A stretch of 64,000 bases of DNA, from positions 1,116,001-1,180,000 of the forward strand of contig JAJFPB010000004.1 in the NCBI GenBank assembly GCA_020881915.1, in the 5' to 3' direction. This DNA comes from Paramyrothecium sp. XJ0827. Its lineage: Eukaryota > Ascomycota > Sordariomycetes > Hypocreales > Stachybotryaceae. Below the pieces are notes generated by a model. It searched no databases. It saw only the letters and a program-made list of their open reading frames with translations, and was not told the DNA's origin. Made by a program: the position numbers and the translations under genes. Positions 42,646 to 60,091 of the stretch are shown here, in pieces; within the stretch, counting starts at the first letter, position 1; the number at the start of each line of letters is the position of its first letter.

Positions 42646-44391
42646 TCAGAACGGCTCGCCTTCAGCATCCTGGTCCTCTCCAAACATGACCTCCGCGCTT
42701 GCTCTCCTCGTGGCTCCCTCGCCCTTGAGCGGGTTGCACGTCTCCCAGCCGGTGGCGGTCCGCCTGACAACCTCTACACCGTCGGCCTCTGCCCAGTGTG
42801 TCAATGTGCCATCATGAAGGCCGCCAAAGTGTACCGGAGGTTGTTCCCCAATCGCGGCCGCTTCAAGATGTCTTGCCACATGCTCCATGCGTTCGTCCCA
42901 AGCGTTAGCCCCGTGGAACTCTTCGGAGCACTGTTGGGCAGGGCACCGCATGAATTTTGGCAGCTCGCAGCGCCGTCGAAAGGCGTCATCCTGCATGGCC
43001 TTGAGGCGCTCTTCGAGTTGCGGCGACGGGCCTTTGGCCTTGGGGTCCTTGTCGTCTGGGGAATGCATTCGACGAATGTGTTGGGTGAAGAGATCCTTGC
43101 GGTTGAACATGACTCCGACCGAAGGGAGCAAAGCGGAGCGTTGATGCGTCGCGGGGCCCTTGCTGTTCGCGCAGTTTCCATGCGTGCAAAGCCAGTAGGT
43201 CAGGTAGAGATGCTGGGATGCGACGTGCCGCTTCCACTCATTCTTGGCTGCAAACGAAGACTTGCAACCAGCGTAGTGGAAGATGCAGACGAAGGGCCGG
43301 ATGTGATCCGTTCTCTTGTGTTTCTTCAGCGACGCCTCGTCTTTGAACGATTGGTGGCATTGGTCACATTTTTGCTGGCCGCTGTAGGAGGGAAGTCTCT
43401 GGGTGGGCCCTGCATTCGAGGTAAAGGAGCCCCTCGCAGACTCCGGTAGGCTGGTCGCATAGCGTTGCTTGAGCAAAGCGCGGCGGCCCCGATCTGCGTT
43501 CTTGGGCTGTTTCCTTCGCCTTGGCACCTGCTTTGTCGCGCTGTGGCCATCATATTGATGATAACACCCACCGGTACTGCTACCCTGTTGTGAGTTGTTC
43601 CTGGCCTCAGTCCTAGGAAGGGATGGCACAGAAAAGGGCAAGTTGGGCTTGACATGGATTTCGTCTCGGACGCCAAGATGCAGGTCGGCAGAGCTCAGAT
43701 GAGAAGGCACAACTGGCTCCGAGGAGCCTGCATCATAGTTGGAAGAACAAGCACCATAAGGGCTGTGCGAGCTGGACGTGTCAAAGCTGTACTCGCGCAG
43801 ATGGTCGAAGTTCGACCCGGCGTCGGTCTCGTTGGCATCCCTGATTTGCACTGTTGAATCAGGGGCGAGTGCGGAAGGGTTCACACAACCTCCGCCATGG
43901 CCGTACGGTGCTTCAGCCAAGCCTGCATGTGTATATTGGCCATCCCAATGTTCATATCGGTTCGAAGCGATGTAAGGAGAGGCAATGACCATGTCCTGGG
44001 GTGTCGATGGTCCCTGCAGTCCGTCAGGGTAATAATCGGCGTCGGCCGCAGGACTTTGACCACTGCTGCACGTTGACGACCGATGCTGAGAGGACGGTGA
44101 CCCCCCTCGCCCGCTGGGCGGCAGATGGTGATCAAGCAAGTGGTCGATGTGTCCAAGGGCGAGCGGCAGCGCATGTGCAGGCTGCTTCGAGGGGACTTGT
44201 TGAGGGGTCTGGGAAGACCCTAGAATGAATCGCTGCATGGGCAGAGAGGTCCAGCACTGCTCAGAGAAGAACTCAGGAGAGCCGTTGATTTCCAGTTGCG
44301 GATCGACTATATCATCCCAAGAAGGTTGCCGGCAATCCCTTGGCAGTGCCGAGAAGTGAGAGGACGGTCCTTCGATAATGAAGGTGCTCAT
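42646..44391 (-). CDS. C2H2 zinc-finger transcription factor (intronless)
   Basis: Single exon, 581 aa. The first 330 residues are Ser/Pro/His-rich with no domain, then a basic stretch (VPRRRKQPKNADRGRRALLKQR). Zinc fingers follow: CDQCHQSFKDEASLKKH with the pair HKRTDH (about 342-363), a second with CIFHYAGCKSSF and NEWKRHVASQH (about 370-396), a third starting CTHGNC and ending FTQHIRRMH (about 403-445), and a fourth with CPAQQC and ERMEHVARH (about 480-505). The motif order and NEWKRHxxSQH belong to a large Pezizomycotina C2H2 family of nuclear regulators with few characterised members. A related but spliced gene lies 8.4 kb downstream in the window, on the same strand. Target genes cannot be inferred. 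Confidence 0.88.
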   Translation of the reverse strand: MSTFIIEGPSSHFSALPRDCRQPSWDDIVDPQLEINGSPEFFSEQCWTSLPMQRFILGSSQTPQQVPSKQPAHALPLALGHIDHLLDHHLPPSGRGGSPSSQHRSSTCSSGQSPAADADYYPDGLQGPSTPQDMVIASPYIASNRYEHWDGQYTHAGLAEAPYGHGGGCVNPSALAPDSTVQIRDANETDAGSNFDHLREYSFDTSSSHSPYGACSSNYDAGSSEPVVPSHLSSADLHLGVRDEIHVKPNLPFSVPSLPRTEARNNSQQGSSTGGCYHQYDGHSATKQVPRRRKQPKNADRGRRALLKQRYATSLPESARGSFTSNAGPTQRLPSYSGQQKCDQCHQSFKDEASLKKHKRTDHIRPFVCIFHYAGCKSSFAAKNEWKRHVASQHLYLTYWLCTHGNCANSKGPATHQRSALLPSVGVMFNRKDLFTQHIRRMHSPDDKDPKAKGPSPQLEERLKAMQDDAFRRRCELPKFMRCPAQQCSEEFHGANAWDERMEHVARHLEAAAIGEQPPVHFGGLHDGTLTHWAEADGVEVVRRTATGWETCNPLKGEGATRRASAEVMFGEDQDAEGEPF

Positions 44392-47625: not shown

Positions 47626-49830
47626 ACCTCGAGGTACCCGTACCTTATTTAGTGTACGCATACATGTAATTATAGAAATTGTAGGACCGTTCCGTTTACG
47701 CGCCCTCAGAAAGTCTCCGATCGTCAGCCATCCGTGTGGATGTACAACGGCACACGGGGTGGACAAGCCTTATTTGGAGCATCAACGTTATTCACACATC
47801 TCCAGTTGGCTACACCCGCAGCTCCTCTGATAGCCACCGGCTCGGATGCCATGCAGACCGGTTAGGACCACCTGGCGTCACTAGGACGTCCGCCTTTTGT
47901 ACTTCGGCTGACAACCAGCACCGTCGCAACATAACCGCCGGCGGCTGGGCCTCTATACCTAGATTCCGACCCCCAATCATGTTCTTCCAGAACTTCGCAT
48001 AGCTCCTTCACCGACACCTGATCGCTCTCCATCATCCAATGAGCCATTGCTCGACCTCGCCATCCATCCATCCACCTATCCATAGTCCATCCACCCCTTT
48101 ACCTTGCGTGGACCCTCCCGGACGCGCCTCTGCTGACCCCTGCCGTTGCACCACATATTACGCGTTGCAACATTGCAGACTGATTAGGTGCACTGCCTGT
48201 CTTCCCTCGGCCTTCTTTGCTTCTTCGCCTTCCACCAGGGTGGTTCGCACGACCCACTGTAGCCTGGTAAGGCAATCCATCTAATGCAGGTGCCTCGACT
48301 ATCCCCTGTCCCGGAGTCGACCCCCATAGTGACTGGTCAGGGTTTGGAAGTGACTTGCGCAACTGTAGGTGCAACTGTAGGTGAAGTCATAGGACCTGTG
48401 ATCCGGTCGCCCAGTGTCTTTGTGCATCCCGTCATCATCGCAATTAGTCGAAAATCCACACTCTGCTCCAAGAGTGTCTGCCGACCTCCGACCACGTGTA
48501 GGCACCATACCCCGTCTCTGCCCCCTTGTCTTGCCCAGGGCATCTTTCCCGCACCTTGTTCGCTCAGAGTCGCCAAGCAATCAACTCCCCTACCCTTACG
48601 AGATACTGCTTTGGGACACACATCCATACAGCCCTATTTTCGTGGAAGCGCCCAGGTGGCGACAATCTCTTGACCGTAATGTCGGTCAGGGCGAAATGAG
48701 CGGAGACCAACCCCGTCTTCGCGTCGCAGCCCGTTGAATCAAACTCAAAACGGGCTTCACAGCTCACCGGGTTCGCAAGCTTCGCTCCAAAGAGGGTGAC
48801 GTGGTTCCCAGGGCCCGGAAATTTTGACTCACAGGACACCGGCATGGCGACCCGCTGCTCAGGGCTGAATCTGGAATGACGTTCGACCTGGATGCTACCC
48901 TCCCGCCAAATTTCACGCAGGCGAATCATGGTCCATATCTGTGCTTACTTCGAGATGGGATGAAACGGAGGAATGCATGGACAGAATATGGGTCGCATTG
49001 AAGTGTTGTGGGCCTTCAGGGAACGCCGTCATTTGCTCAGCTTCCCGGCAATGACAGGCCCCGTATGATTGCGCTTTACGGTAATGTAGAACTTCGAGAT
49101 AGTGTCTGGGAATTTGGCAAGCTGGAAAGCCCATAAGCTTGGAACTGCTGAAGCCGTGGACACAACCCCGGGGCTTATCGTCCCGTCGCTGTCTGCAACT
49201 CCCTACTACGATAATTCACCTAGGAAACACCTGTGCCTCAGAGACAATTGACTGGCTAAGTAAAGCAAGAAATTGGTGATATCAACATGAACAGATACAG
49301 CTTGGCCCCCATCATTTGATGTTAGAGGAATCTTGAGGACGTTTGCTAGAGGGAGTGCTGCCGTCTACTTGAGCAGTCACTGATACCCTGAGCTAAGCTT
49401 AGACTCCGAAACTCTTCCCGTAGTATGTCAAGGCCTAATCGTGCTGTGCTCGTACAATGTTTCTTTGCTCCCCTGAGCTATAATAGCAGAATCGCTTCGC
49501 GATCAACCATGGTTTGTCCCAAGACTACGATAACTATACCAATGCCGAGAATGCAGAAGCGCAGTGAGAAGTTATGGCCGACAGGAGAATCTTGCTTCAT
49601 CCTCGTAGTGTGCTATGCAATTTAGTCCTATCGGAACCAATAAAGACCTCTTGAGAAGCTGCACCAGGCGCAAGTTGTCGTGTATCGTTCTTCCATAGTG
49701 GAATACGTGCGCTCACGGTATTAGGAGGGGAGTTATGTGGGGCAAAATTCATGAGCCAATATAATGTTACAAATCTTCCAAAAATTCTGACGCAAGGGAG
49801 GATGGCCGAGTGGTCTAAGGCGGTGGTTTT

Positions 49831-49879
49831 GTAAGCAAGCCCCTTCTACGTAACCATATCATCTACTAATTCCTTGCAG
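49831..49879 (+). other. mRNA-type (GT-AG) intron-like insert inside the tRNA anticodon
   Basis: A 49-bp segment starts GTAAGC, contains CTACTAAT 10 bp before its end, and finishes with a pyrimidine-rich stretch and TTGCAG. These are the donor, branch site and acceptor seen in the protein-gene introns of this window. It sits between tRNA positions 34 and 35, where eukaryotic tRNA introns never occur (the canonical site is 37/38). Its removal restores a perfect tRNA-Leu(UAA) loop. Confidence 0.7.
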
Positions 49880-49882
49880 AAG

Positions 49883-49896
49883 TTCATCTGAACTCA
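49883..49896 (+). other. Canonical tRNA intron (14 nt) at position 37/38
   Basis: Fourteen bases lie between G37 and C38 once the GT-AG insert is taken out, the standard position cut by tRNA splicing endonuclease. Boundaries are set by the anticodon stem pairing. Confidence 0.6.
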
Positions 49897-49945
49897 CACC
49901 ATTTACGAAAGTAGCGTGGGATCGAAACCCACTCCTCTCATGATC

Positions 49946-49957
49946 TTTTTTTTTTTT
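49946..49957 (+). terminator. RNA polymerase III terminator
   Basis: A run of 12 T residues starts 5 bp after the tRNA 3' end, a strong Pol III stop signal. It argues that the gene is transcribed. Confidence 0.8.
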
Positions 49958-52785
49958 GGCTTCACTCTTGGTGAGTTCTTATCATTCTGGAGATTTTCTT
50001 TGTTGCTATTAATCTCTTTTGATCGTGTTGCGATGAGAAATCGGTTGAGGTTGTCGTAGATGTTGGATGTAGAAATGGCGGGGATGCCCCGCCAAGAGGG
50101 TGAGCGCGCCAAATGCCGGGACTGTGTCACTATAGGGGAGGCCAATGAAAGAGGAGACATTAAAAGTTGGGAATGTGAGACTACTGTTGCTTCTATGCCA
50201 TAAGCTTTCCGTGTGGTATCATGCAACGTTTTTGGTCTGGCTCTGGAAGGGGTAAACCATTGGGCTCTGGAAGGGCTGGCTCGTGGACACCCACAATAAG
50301 AAGGACTCGATGCGGAAGCAGAGAGAACATATTCCTAAGAAATAGCCATTCTGTTAAGCATGAGAAAAGCCGGAATCTCTAAAACTTAATGCGAAATTCT
50401 ACGCATTGACATCCAAAAGCTGAACGAACCGGAGCAGACTCCGTCAGCAATGACATCCCCGTGGTTAACCTACGACTCATCCACTTCGAGAATAGAAGAC
50501 AGTGTGCAATGCACCAATCGCAAATGTCAACGCCTTCTAAGATATTAACAGCGAGTGATCGACTTGCACGGATACCTGAGCCGACCTATGGGGACCCCGG
50601 ACTGCTAGATTAACATGAAGCGCGGTAGGTCTTGCGTGCATGAAGATGCCGGTTAGATACAGAAAGGGTGGATATACCGGACAAATAGTGAAGAAGAACA
50701 TGATAACGAACGAAACTAAGTCGAAGATACTTCGATGGCAGAAAGGAGACAAATTCAACATGGCAATGAAGAGCGTAGAAGGAATAATAGAACAAGTATC
50801 GGCGACACGACAAACTCCATCTTGGACAGAGTGGTGAAAACTGGAACTTAATGTTGGCTATAGAGACGCATGGAACGGCTTCTGGCCTTAATGCTGGTGA
50901 TCAAGTAACACGAGAGTGTATTAACCTACAGTAGCTGATGAAGCTTAGCAGTATGCTGCCGTACACAGCAATGTCAGGACACACGGAACGGCGGCTGTTC
51001 CAGCCCCTGAGCGCGCAGATAACTATATAAGAAGCTACTTCTTCATCGTAGCTAGGGCCGTTCAGAGATTAATTTACAGTTACTTGACCCTATAGCGCTT
51101 TTCACTTTGATTCAGCATCACTCTTTGCCACGTAGGAACGGTATATGGCGCAAGAAGAGTTGATGGATCTACGCACGTCGAACCAGTGGTTACTTTTCCT
51201 CATGCCTACTCACCTTCCACCTACTCCAGAATCACTAAGCCCAGTCTAAAAAAGAAGCCCTAGGTGTGTTCTCTCGACCTATCTAGATCCTTGGGGTTGG
51301 TTGCTTAAGGGCAATCGGCACTCGACGGGTTTCTTAGTCCAATCACCCGAACTGAACATGATACTGGTGTATTGAGAGAAGAGGTGATTGGATAGGGTGT
51401 GGGAAAGATTCGAAAGATTCACCCTGATCGACAACATTCGGTCTATAGCTGATAACTCAGCGAGGAGCTCCGCATAGCCATCTCGATGCTCGATATTTGT
51501 CCTTTATGCCATGTTCCTTACACTCAGCACACCAAGACGCAACCACGAGTAGTAGTTTATCGTATCCTTCAGCATCCGCCCCAAATAGGTAGTCGTCTAT
51601 GATCCGACGTGCAGGCGCCCTTACACTCCTCGGCTTGCTCCTCCTTGTTTCAACTGAGTGCGGAATGCTCTTATCAGATGGGGTTGCTGAACGGAAATGT
51701 TTTTGCACGTACTAGAACCACACCGTCGGCGAGCCATTTCATAATCGCCCGGCAGATGGATTGGTATCGCGTTTGAAAGCCTTGTGACAATTTAAACATT
51801 CAATTCTCACAGTTCTGAAGCAATCGACTTCGTCACTGCTTTTCCAGTTTGGCGAAATGTTGGATTCGGTTGTGAAGGGGCGGAGATGAGGATGGGAGAG
51901 GATGGGAGGGGATGGGGGGATCACCATCCCATTTCCACCGCGTTCATCACGCGTCTGGAAACAGCAGCAGCTGTTACCAGCTACATCTGTGTCAGGGCCA
52001 ATCCGTCTGCTCGCCATCACCCTGTAGCCTAAGCAACCTGAAGTAGCTCTCCAGTATTTATGCCAGGTAAGGCCGGGCAATGCAGACAAAGAAACCCTTC
52101 CAGAAATCAGGACTGGGCCAAGTTGAAGAGGCATCTTTCTCTTGTACTCATGTGTCTGGTGGGAAGCAAGGCCCGGTAGTCGGAAGGCGGAGACGATAAG
52201 TTCAGACACTACAGCAACCATTATACTCTAGTTGCTGCAGTTGTTTTACTTTTGTCTGCTACTTACTTCGGCAAGCACGTCTTGTTTGGCCAACTACTCG
52301 TTTATAGAGCATGAAATTAGACCAGAGTTGAGCGCGTACCAGTGATTACTTTCTAAATATATTTGACGCTCGCAGGTGAAGTCTGCTCACCTTGGCGTAA
52401 CCCATGGCATGGATTTTCCGTCAACAACATGGTTTTGAGTCTTCGCTTCCTTCCTAGCCATAAAATCCAAGACCATGGCCAACATCGGATGGATGGTCAG
52501 GGCTGACGCGCCAGTCACTAGACCCAAACGAAAACCCTCAATGCAACGAGAACGTGGTCGTCTGCTCTCCGAACTACGCGAATGAATATGAAGCAAGGTG
52601 ACCTAGTACGAGAGAGGATTAGGCGTTAGGAAGATTCATTGTTGTAGTTGTATTCAGTGGGGCGTTTCTATCATGAACCCTCGTGCATAACATGCAAACC
52701 ATGAGTACGCACTCTGCATTACCGCGTATTAAATTTCTTCATTCGCCTCGTACCCGTTTCCTCATATCTTGTCTGCCGTAACGCC
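49958..52785. other. AT-richer non-coding region with possible relics
   Basis: No firm gene. A short open frame at 50640-50837 (MPVRYRKGGYTGQIVKKN...) looks coding but matches nothing I know. At 50850 a TGTTGG start is followed by a TATATAA at 51023, reminiscent of a solo LTR, though the other end is unclear. On the minus strand, pieces 52602-52391, 52221-51739 and 51681-51457 carry splice-like borders and protein-like text (CLNCHKAFKRD, WCAECKEHGIKDKY); they may be a small hypothetical or decayed gene. Confidence 0.35.
50850..51200. mobile_element. Possible solo-LTR-like remnant
   Basis: Begins TGTTGG, typical of LTR ends, contains a TATATAA about 175 bp inside, and is preceded by a short orphan open frame. 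The 3' end (CA) and a target-site duplication could not be fixed, and no partner LTR was found by eye. Boundaries are approximate. Confidence 0.2.
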
Positions 52786-58484: not shown

Positions 58485-60091
58485 ATGTCGGTCTCGGCCA
58501 TGGCTTCCCTCACGCCTCTTGGCGGACGATGCTTTCAGCAAAGCTTTCAGCAAAGTACCCGAGGGCTACTCAATCTACAGGTCAAGTCCCGAAACAGCAG
58601 ACTTCAGTTACGTGCCATCGTAGCTTTCCGACATGAGCAGCTGCGATGCCAATCGAACTCCTCATCCGGGCAGAGCGGAAAACCGCCACGGCCCGAGTTA
58701 CCGAAAATAACATTCCGAAGATTCGCTGGTCGAGCGTTGGGCACTGGCCTGCGGAACCTTGTGTTTGTGCTGAGCCCAAGTGGAATTCGGACAGCATATC
58801 GTCAAGCTCCAGGGACAATCACAATTACGATTATTATGTAAATATTGTCCATCTCTGCGTGTTTTGGCTCCTGGCTAATGATTTTAGGCTTGTCGGAACT
58901 TTCATCTTCTGCATTGTCGCCATCCGGGATTTCATGAAAACGTTCTATAGTTCCTATTTCAGCAAATTCCCGGAGCCGGTGGCGACAACGCTACGTCGTG
59001 CAATTTACTATTCGAACTATCGACCGGATCCGGAGTTGGCTTTGAAATACTACAGAAAAGCTATGGAGCAGTGCGCGGAAATCGGACTTGACCCGTTCTC
59101 GGATGAGGTATTGGGCATCCGCATACAGATTTCAGCTTGGCTCGAGAAGGTAAACAGTCCCGGCTCGGCTGTTGATGTCCTTGAATCCGTCTTGAAGGAC
59201 TGTAAGAAATGGGTCGAGGTCATGGAGCAATCTGTAAAGGACGGCAAGATCAATGCGGCTGGCCACCTTGTCGAGCCGGCCAACCCACTCGTCAACCCAC
59301 CACAGGTCAAGGATGGACCAGTTACGAAGGCTGAGAACGAAGACGATGCCCCTCCAGCGCCAACAGAAACACTTTGGCGTAAGCGCCAGCGCCTGCTCGC
59401 GAAGGCTGTTGGCACGAGTGTTAAGCTGGGCGAGCTCTATGCGGACGAACACGTCCTCAACCCAGACAAGTCCCATGATCACCTTGTCTGGGCGCTAGAG
59501 ACGTCGTTGAAGGAATTCCGACGACGGCAAACTGAAGGCCCAAAGCCTGGCGAAGAGTCTTGGTTGACGCCAGAGGAGCTTGGTGGCGAGATGGAGTCAC
59601 TAGGTCGTGACTACGAACGGAGATCCCAGTTTCAGCTGGCCATCCCATTATTCTTCCAGGCTCTTCGTCTCTGCGAAAGCCCTTGTCATCGCGCGGTCAT
59701 CATGAACAACCTTTCAGCAGCCTTTGCGCAGCACCCTATCTACAGCCCTGCTGTTGTGGATACCTCAGAAACCCTCAAGGACATATTTAATTCTGCCATG
59801 CCGCAAACGAGAGATGATTGTCTGGAGGCGGCGCTGAACTGGGCTCGTAATGCATATACTCATGCACGGGATGTCAAGGGGGACGATCGAACAGACGAGT
59901 GTGACGAGGCATGCGCTGTGGCGTTGTGCAACTGGGGTGATGTCGCTGCAATGATGGGAAAGACAGATCTTGCCAGTAAGAAGTATCAGCAGTGCATCGA
60001 CATGAGCAAGAAGATGGACTTTTCCCTGGGCGTTCAACAAGCGCAAGAGGGCCTTTCCAAGCTATCAAAGTCTGGAAAAGAAAGTGCCTGA
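58485..60091 (+). CDS. Mitochondrial TPR-repeat membrane protein, Mgr3-like
   Basis: Exons 58485-58837 and 58888-60091, joined over a GTAAAT...TTTTAG intron, encode 518 aa. Splicing is needed: exon 1 supplies a basic, hydroxylated presequence-like N-terminus (TRGLLNLQVKSRNSRLQLRA) and the first half of a membrane helix (about residues 108-128) that the intron splits. After it come TPR-like helices: FPEPVATTLRRAIYYSN, DPELALKYYRKAMEQCAEIG, LGRDYERRSQFQLAIPLFFQ, ACAVALCNWGDVAAMMGK and KYQQCIDMSKK. Presequence, single helix and TPRs recall yeast Mgr3, an adaptor of the mitochondrial i-AAA protease; the specific orthology is inference. An ATG at 58500 (GCCATGG) has a better context and may be the true start; an ATG at 58275 would give a longer form. 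Confidence 0.8.

Follow-up and report, generated by a model that had tools for sequence, protein, structure and literature searches.

mRNA-type introns occur in the U6 snRNA of fission yeast and other fungi, and fungal U6 introns have reportedly been surveyed. The locus described here resembles the fission yeast case in that GT-AG borders and a branch site lie within a Pol III RNA, and the U6 of the same genome appears to carry two such introns of its own. It differs in that the host is a tRNA, the cut falls in the anticodon and the same molecule would have to pass through two splicing systems. Compared with ordinary nuclear tRNA introns, which lie at 37/38, a 14-nt intron in our gene agrees by position and predicted hairpin, whereas a 49-nt intron in the same gene lies at 34/35, bears spliceosomal signals and interrupts the anticodon.

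Several tRNA introns per gene, or introns away from 37/38, have been described in archaea, nucleomorphs and Cyanidioschyzon merolae, and the accessible part of that source ascribes them to the tRNA endonuclease or leaves the route open (PMC4090602). Our gene likewise has more than one intron, one of them off 37/38; a GT-AG intron with a branch site, in contrast, is described for none of these groups in the same part of that source. Non-conventional introns of euglenid nuclear genes have ends that can pair with each other (PMC4770533), as do the ends of the 49-nt intron, whereas the euglenid borders are variable and non-canonical and those of the 49-nt intron are GT-AG with a branch site. The open-access literature, covered in part through excerpts, yielded no description of a nuclear tRNA with a spliceosomal intron, which agrees with the first-pass annotation of this locus, whose author knew of none. 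mRNA-type introns in a Pol III RNA are already known; what appears to be new here, judging from the sequence, is such an intron in a tRNA anticodon beside a tRNA-type intron.

Anatomy of the tRNA gene

We analysed a 64-kb stretch of contig C10, hereafter the window (Table 1). At its own cut-offs, Rfam gave a single RNA match in the window, a class II nuclear tRNA at 49796-49940 (39.7 bits against a cut-off of 29). The 5' half reads GGGAGGA, TG, GCC, an 11-nt D loop, GGC, G, GTGGT and TTT, followed by 49 nt; the 3' half reads AAG, 14 nt, C (N38, position 49897), ACCAT, a 13-nt variable arm, GTGGG, ATCGAAA, CCCAC, TCCTCTC and A. The acceptor (GGGAGGA/TCCTCTC), D (GCC/GGC), anticodon (GTGGT/ACCAT, with one G-U pair) and T (GTGGG/CCCAC) stems are all formed, and the Pol III signals, A box, B box and T12, are all present in the letters.

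The T loop (49921-49927) is ATCGAAA, with A54 and A60, and departs from the TTCRANN consensus; among elongators A54 is unusual. Since ATCGAAA is the T loop of eukaryotic initiator tRNAs, the B box itself should work; the promoter box is plausible, but the tRNA is unusual in having this loop.

Table 1. Coordinates of the locus and of the mRNA intron used for comparison (window positions unless a contig is named).
Feature	Position	Strand	Basis or remark
Window	G000:C10:1116001-1180000		genome of 51.8 Mb in 15 contigs
Candidate TATA-like element, TATAATG	49760..49766	+	about 36 bases upstream of tRNA start; putative role, from the letters
5' exon: acceptor 5' strand, D arm (A box TGGCCGAGTGG), anticodon stem 5' strand, positions 32-34 TTT	49796..49830	+	Rfam tRNA and model R1 matches
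GT-AG intron, 49 nt, tRNA positions 34/35	49831..49879	+	GTAAGC, branch CTAAT, TTGCAG; geometry like TPR and U6 introns
Middle exon, A35 A36 G37	49880..49882	+	sequence letters
14-nt intron, normal 37/38 site	49883..49896	+	hairpin in predicted half-spliced precursor
3' exon: N38, anticodon stem 3' strand, 13-nt variable arm, T arm (B box GGATCGAAACC), acceptor 3' strand, A73	49897..49940	+	alignment, R1, letters
T12 Pol III terminator	49946..49957	+	sequence letters
TPR gene mRNA intron, 50 nt, yardstick	58838..58887	+	GTAAAT ... CTAAT ... TTTTAG

Excision of the inserts and the resulting anticodon

The anticodon loop carries 63 extra bases and measures 70 nt with its inserts. All eight contiguous 63-nt excisions left CTC, TTC, TGC or TGT, none of them a leucine anticodon, and a single 63-nt intron, which yields Glu, Ala or Thr anticodons alone, was rejected. 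When the 63 nt were cut at 37/38, the loop became TTTGTAC with the anticodon TGT. Removal of the GT-AG segment up to the first AG instead gave TAA with G37 and left 14 nt at 37/38; the second AG (a 52-nt removal) yielded TTT with C37 and was likewise rejected. Removal in two steps (49 nt, then 14 nt) produced the loop TT-TAA-G-C in an 82-nt tRNA with 23 of 23 expected pairs, and this product fits tRNA-Leu(UAA) (class II cloverleaf, A73, G37 and anticodon TAA).

When the insert letters were permuted singly with T32-T34 fixed, the GT-AG route gave TAA in 106 of 200,000 shuffles and any leucine anticodon in 135 of 200,000, and in 1,063 of 200,000 some intron of the loosely defined form GT..branch..YAG was present at the site. 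Run without introns, ARAGORN detected no gene here; run with introns, it detected the gene and labelled it Glu(TTC), since it excises the 63 nt as a single block.

Likeness to the leucine tRNAs of the genome

Ten other Leu genes were found by pattern (six CAG, three CAA and one TAG); all have a single intron, 16-67 nt long, that we placed manually at 37/38. ARAGORN agreed on the anticodon of 5/6 CAG genes and 2/3 CAA genes; L034, L051 and L060 are labelled otherwise because their introns are placed differently, and our Leu readings of them are manual. The tRNA-Leu(CAA) genes (L049, L057 and L060) have long introns of 55, 57 and 67 nt at 37/38 by the same manual placement.

We then aligned the spliced window tRNA with seven Leu sequences, three of the ten being omitted as identical to two of those retained. 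Here too the window tRNA has all 23 pairs, and a 13-nt variable arm is common to all eight sequences. In this alignment 98.9% of cells were paired and 17 pairs had changed on both sides; none of the shuffles (0/500) scored as high, and at most 53% of cells were paired when the alignment was slid. The Leu model R1 had this gene as its one match in the window (74.7 bits), a score that is partly a matter of construction because the window gene went into the model.

These results bear out what the first-pass annotation observed; the T loop ATCGAAA and a possible pairing of the intron ends (below) are features that it did not mention. It had described a complete class II tRNA with both boxes, paired arms, A73 and a T12 terminator, and coordinates and letters match; its identification of a tRNA-Leu is upheld by the seven other Leu sequences of the genome, as is the 49-bp GT-AG segment that it placed between positions 34 and 35, present at 49831-49879. 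The loop TT-TAA-G with a 14-nt intron at 37/38 was reproduced by GT-AG excision to the first AG, and the alignment upholds this second intron too.

Comparison with other introns of the genome

The 49-nt segment (GTAAGC...CTACTAAT...TTGCAG) has GT-AG borders with 5' and 3' consensus, GTAAGC not being the commonest 5' splice site, and a branch site, CTAAT, that fits YTRAY with 10 nt between the branch A and the 3' end. As a yardstick we used an mRNA intron in the nearby TPR gene, placed between two tblastn pieces of the Paramyrothecium foliicola homologue P0001 with the frame kept. Length, zero-based start of the branch site and number of bases that follow the branch A were 49, 35 and 10 for the tRNA intron and 50, 37 and 9 for the TPR intron; for two inserts in U6 they were 51, 36 and 11, and 53, 38 and 11. 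By these three yardsticks, two of them U6 inserts, 49 nt (against 50, 51 and 53) is a normal intron length here.

For U6 snRNA, one locus was found, on contig C8, reading TTCGCCTTCGGGCAC...AACGATA, 51 nt, CAGAGAAGATTAGCATTGCCCCTGCAT, 53 nt, AAGGATGACACGC..., with both inserts GT-AG and containing CTAAC. The first insert lies between ACGATA and CAGAGA (L072 1489-1539, G000:C8:3357023-3357073) and the second between CCCCTGCAT and AAGGATG (L072 1567-1619, G000:C8:3357101-3357153). Rfam backs the second and third exons, through two pieces 50 bases apart (27.2 and 22.7 bits, both below the cut-off of 44), and the first exon and exact borders come from manual reading. The family search, in which 47 of 3,022 candidates were scored, also had two weaker matches elsewhere in the genome (20.4 and 17.2 bits); 10 of 14 prokaryote controls also gave matches, none above the cut-off. 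From its sequence, the U6 locus appears to be split by two spliceosomal-type introns.

Shuffled sequences aligned as well with the tRNA intron as the first U6 insert did in 142 of 2,000 cases, as the second did in 370 of 2,000 and as the TPR intron did in 703 of 2,000. The tRNA intron and the U6 and TPR introns are therefore not clearly copies of one another, and the first U6 insert offers at best a weak hint of common origin.

Predicted folds and the order of steps

Folded freely, the 145-nt precursor did not form a cloverleaf and did not exceed shuffled sequences in stability (z -0.78; 37/200 shuffles as good). With the arms enforced, a cloverleaf lay 3.2 kcal/mol above the minimum, and the 5' splice site was paired with the 3' splice site region. 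The 96-nt form, from which the 49 nt had been taken, folded freely into a cloverleaf with an extended anticodon stem and an intron hairpin, a layout that matches 4 of the 10 ordinary Leu precursors (L032, L035, L037 and L038, all Leu(CAG)). The 131-nt form, with the 49 nt kept and the 14 nt gone, gave a cloverleaf too; the idea that a cloverleaf forms solely after removal of the 49 nt was therefore rejected, and the folds leave the order of steps unsettled.

Once the 49 nt are removed, the 14-nt piece stands at the canonical insertion point (G37|14 nt|C38). In the half-spliced fold the cloverleaf was kept, the 3' cut was unpaired and the predicted 5' cut fell within the hairpin stem; by the same prediction, the 5' cut was flanked on both sides by pairs in 7 of the 10 ordinary Leu precursors. 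As a rule, pyrimidine 32 is faced by a purine at position -3 of a tRNA intron (the anticodon-intron pair). Position -3 of the 14-nt intron is T, and a pyrimidine also stands there in 7 of the 10 ordinary Leu introns with manual borders.

The ends of the 49-nt intron can pair fully with each other, 49827-49835 with 49873-49881, forming 9 bp across both splice sites with two G-U pairs; a pairing of intron ends as long arose in 460 of 20,000 shuffles. Such a helix, if it forms as modelled, could hinder U1 and U6, and it might point to a structure-reading nuclease. We accordingly weighed a route in which the tRNA endonuclease, or another nuclease of that kind, cuts the 49-nt piece and tRNA ligase joins the ends, the GT-AG borders being a coincidence and the gene having two tRNA-type introns, like genes of red algae and nucleomorphs. 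Besides the 9-bp pairing, C. merolae and nucleomorphs offer eukaryotic precedent for tRNA introns away from the canonical site (PMC4090602). However, in place of a bulge-helix-bulge (3-nt bulges at both cuts next to a 4-bp helix), the arms-enforced fold, a single prediction, puts the 34/35 cut inside a helix and not in a 3-nt bulge; GTAAG, branch site and CAG are spaced as in other introns here; and the ten other Leu genes all fit introns at 37/38. We regard this route as unlikely.

Search for another reader of UUA

UUA is in use in this genome: the TPR gene has 518 codons, 3 of them UUA, and one of these three encodes the Leu of an IPLFF motif common to the three homologues read (P0001, P0003 and P0076). 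In the cytosol, no anticodon but UAA is known to read UUA well. A pattern search of the genome for an uninterrupted tRNA-Leu(UAA) gave no match. A second such search returned six CAG genes and the window gene alone, and two further ones returned five and six places that were chance-like and none tRNA-like; the five-place set (control 9) contained no Rfam tRNA and the six-place set (control 16) was judged from its letters alone. With the spliced 82-mer as a DNA query against the genome, the two halves of the window gene were matched and no intact copy was found, a query that sees close copies alone, because the CAG genes, which share its D arm, were missed.

Another tRNA pattern found 29 places (24 with the pattern reversed), 14 of them already known and 15 new with three mismatches; in the six of these 15 that were examined, ARAGORN called no tRNA. 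We compared the D-arm parts of three Leu(UAA) patterns with the 20 class II D arms read here; 19, 20 and 19 of these fit, a check that is partly circular because those genes came from similar patterns. The Rfam tRNA search of the genome scored 63 of 1,480 candidates, and the window gene was not listed among its matches. None of the genome searches turned up a gene for Leu(AAG) or Ser(AGA); these genes may have unusual D arms or, like the window gene, an interruption before the anticodon. A divergent Leu(UAA) gene could have been missed, since the searches overlooked Leu(AAG), Ser(AGA) and, with the 82-mer, the CAG genes, and since the tRNA and U6 family searches scored 63 of 1,480 and 47 of 3,022 candidates.

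On a mitochondrial-looking contig of 54,848 bases (C6), tRNA matches recur at a spacing of about 30.8 kb, as if a genome of about 30.8 kb had been assembled almost twice over.

The window gene could also be a pseudogene, disrupted and giving no working tRNA, with some other Leu(UAA) gene reading UUA. Its odd T loop, ATCGAAA, speaks for this, as does the incompleteness of searches that also missed Leu(AAG) and Ser(AGA). Yet the 23 pairs are complete, the gene retains both boxes and its terminator, removal of the inserts restores TAA with G37 exactly, and the genome searches found no uninterrupted copy; we consider a pseudogene improbable.

The two remaining readings are far weaker. One-step removal of the 63 nt by the tRNA endonuclease would use 37/38, the usual site, and would give the loop TTTGTAC, but the resulting Leu-type tRNA with anticodon TGT would insert leucine at ACA codons, UUA would have no reader among the genes found and the GT-branch-AG signals would be left unexplained, so we give this very little credence.

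The last reading turns on the neighbourhood of the gene. The tRNA gene sits between the TPR gene (58485-60091, with ORF 58646-60091), whose protein is 93% identical to P. foliicola HJFPF1_02007 over 82% of the query, and ORF 42646-44391, which is 79% identical to HJFPF1_02010 and whose relatives carry the name C2H2-type; no Pfam family was found in the protein of the latter ORF. These identities place the host in or close to the Stachybotryaceae (Hypocreales); searches for relatives of the locus among viral contigs and genome contigs returned nothing, which is expected for a fungus. Fungal intergenic regions are often transcribed, and short ATG ORFs occur nearby, including a minus-strand ORF of 85 aa that overlaps the tRNA gene, so the GT-AG segment could belong to an overlapping Pol II transcript and lie within the tRNA gene by chance; however, the listed ATG ORFs overlapping 48800-50900 are all of at most 121 aa, and chance would have to account for an excision that restores a leucine anticodon exactly, which makes this reading highly implausible.

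Discussion

Taken together, we think it likely that the window gene makes a working nuclear tRNA-Leu(UAA) and has two kinds of intron, one of 49 nt for the spliceosome and one of 14 nt for the tRNA endonuclease. Transcription by Pol III would be directed by the internal A and B boxes and end at T12. The spliceosome would then excise the 49-nt intron and rebuild the anticodon by joining T34 to A35. In layout, the resulting 96-nt half-spliced RNA would resemble ordinary Leu precursors of the genome, and the tRNA endonuclease and ligase would take out the 14-nt intron at 37/38.

The first-pass annotation had proposed that this tRNA needs the spliceosome. That proposal gains indirect support because the size and branch geometry of the intron match those of three other introns of the genome, because two of those introns split the single U6 locus found, because no uninterrupted Leu(UAA) copy was found and because the 96-nt fold is laid out like the Leu(CAG) precursors here; removal by the spliceosome itself is something we infer. 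The same annotation had suggested comparing the Leu(UAA) genes of the genome for the 49-bp gap: the other Leu genes could be aligned, and a gap-free UAA copy was not found in the genome searches. As for its origin, the 49-nt intron probably arose through an insertion event such as reverse splicing, which is the proposed origin of the fission yeast U6 intron.

More tentatively, and with less confidence than we place in the two kinds of intron, this may be the sole cytoplasmic UUA-reading tRNA, built by two unrelated machines in a fixed order, the spliceosome before the tRNA endonuclease. The spliceosome would probably come first because the 49 nt must be gone before the usual endonuclease site, as counted from the anticodon stem, coincides with G37|C38; were the endonuclease to act at its usual site before that, the anticodon UGU would be left. 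If the order is indeed fixed, any other would leave the cell with a leucine tRNA for a threonine codon, and pairing between the intron ends could keep the tRNA endonuclease away until splicing is done.

Such a gene would show how tRNA finders miss or mislabel its kind, as ARAGORN did here, and would offer a natural test of which non-Pol II RNAs can enter the spliceosome. It would capture the gain of an intron by a Pol III RNA that is both small and essential. An anticodon assembled by the spliceosome would tie splicing to decoding and, if our reading is right, the translation of UUA in this organism would depend directly on the spliceosome.
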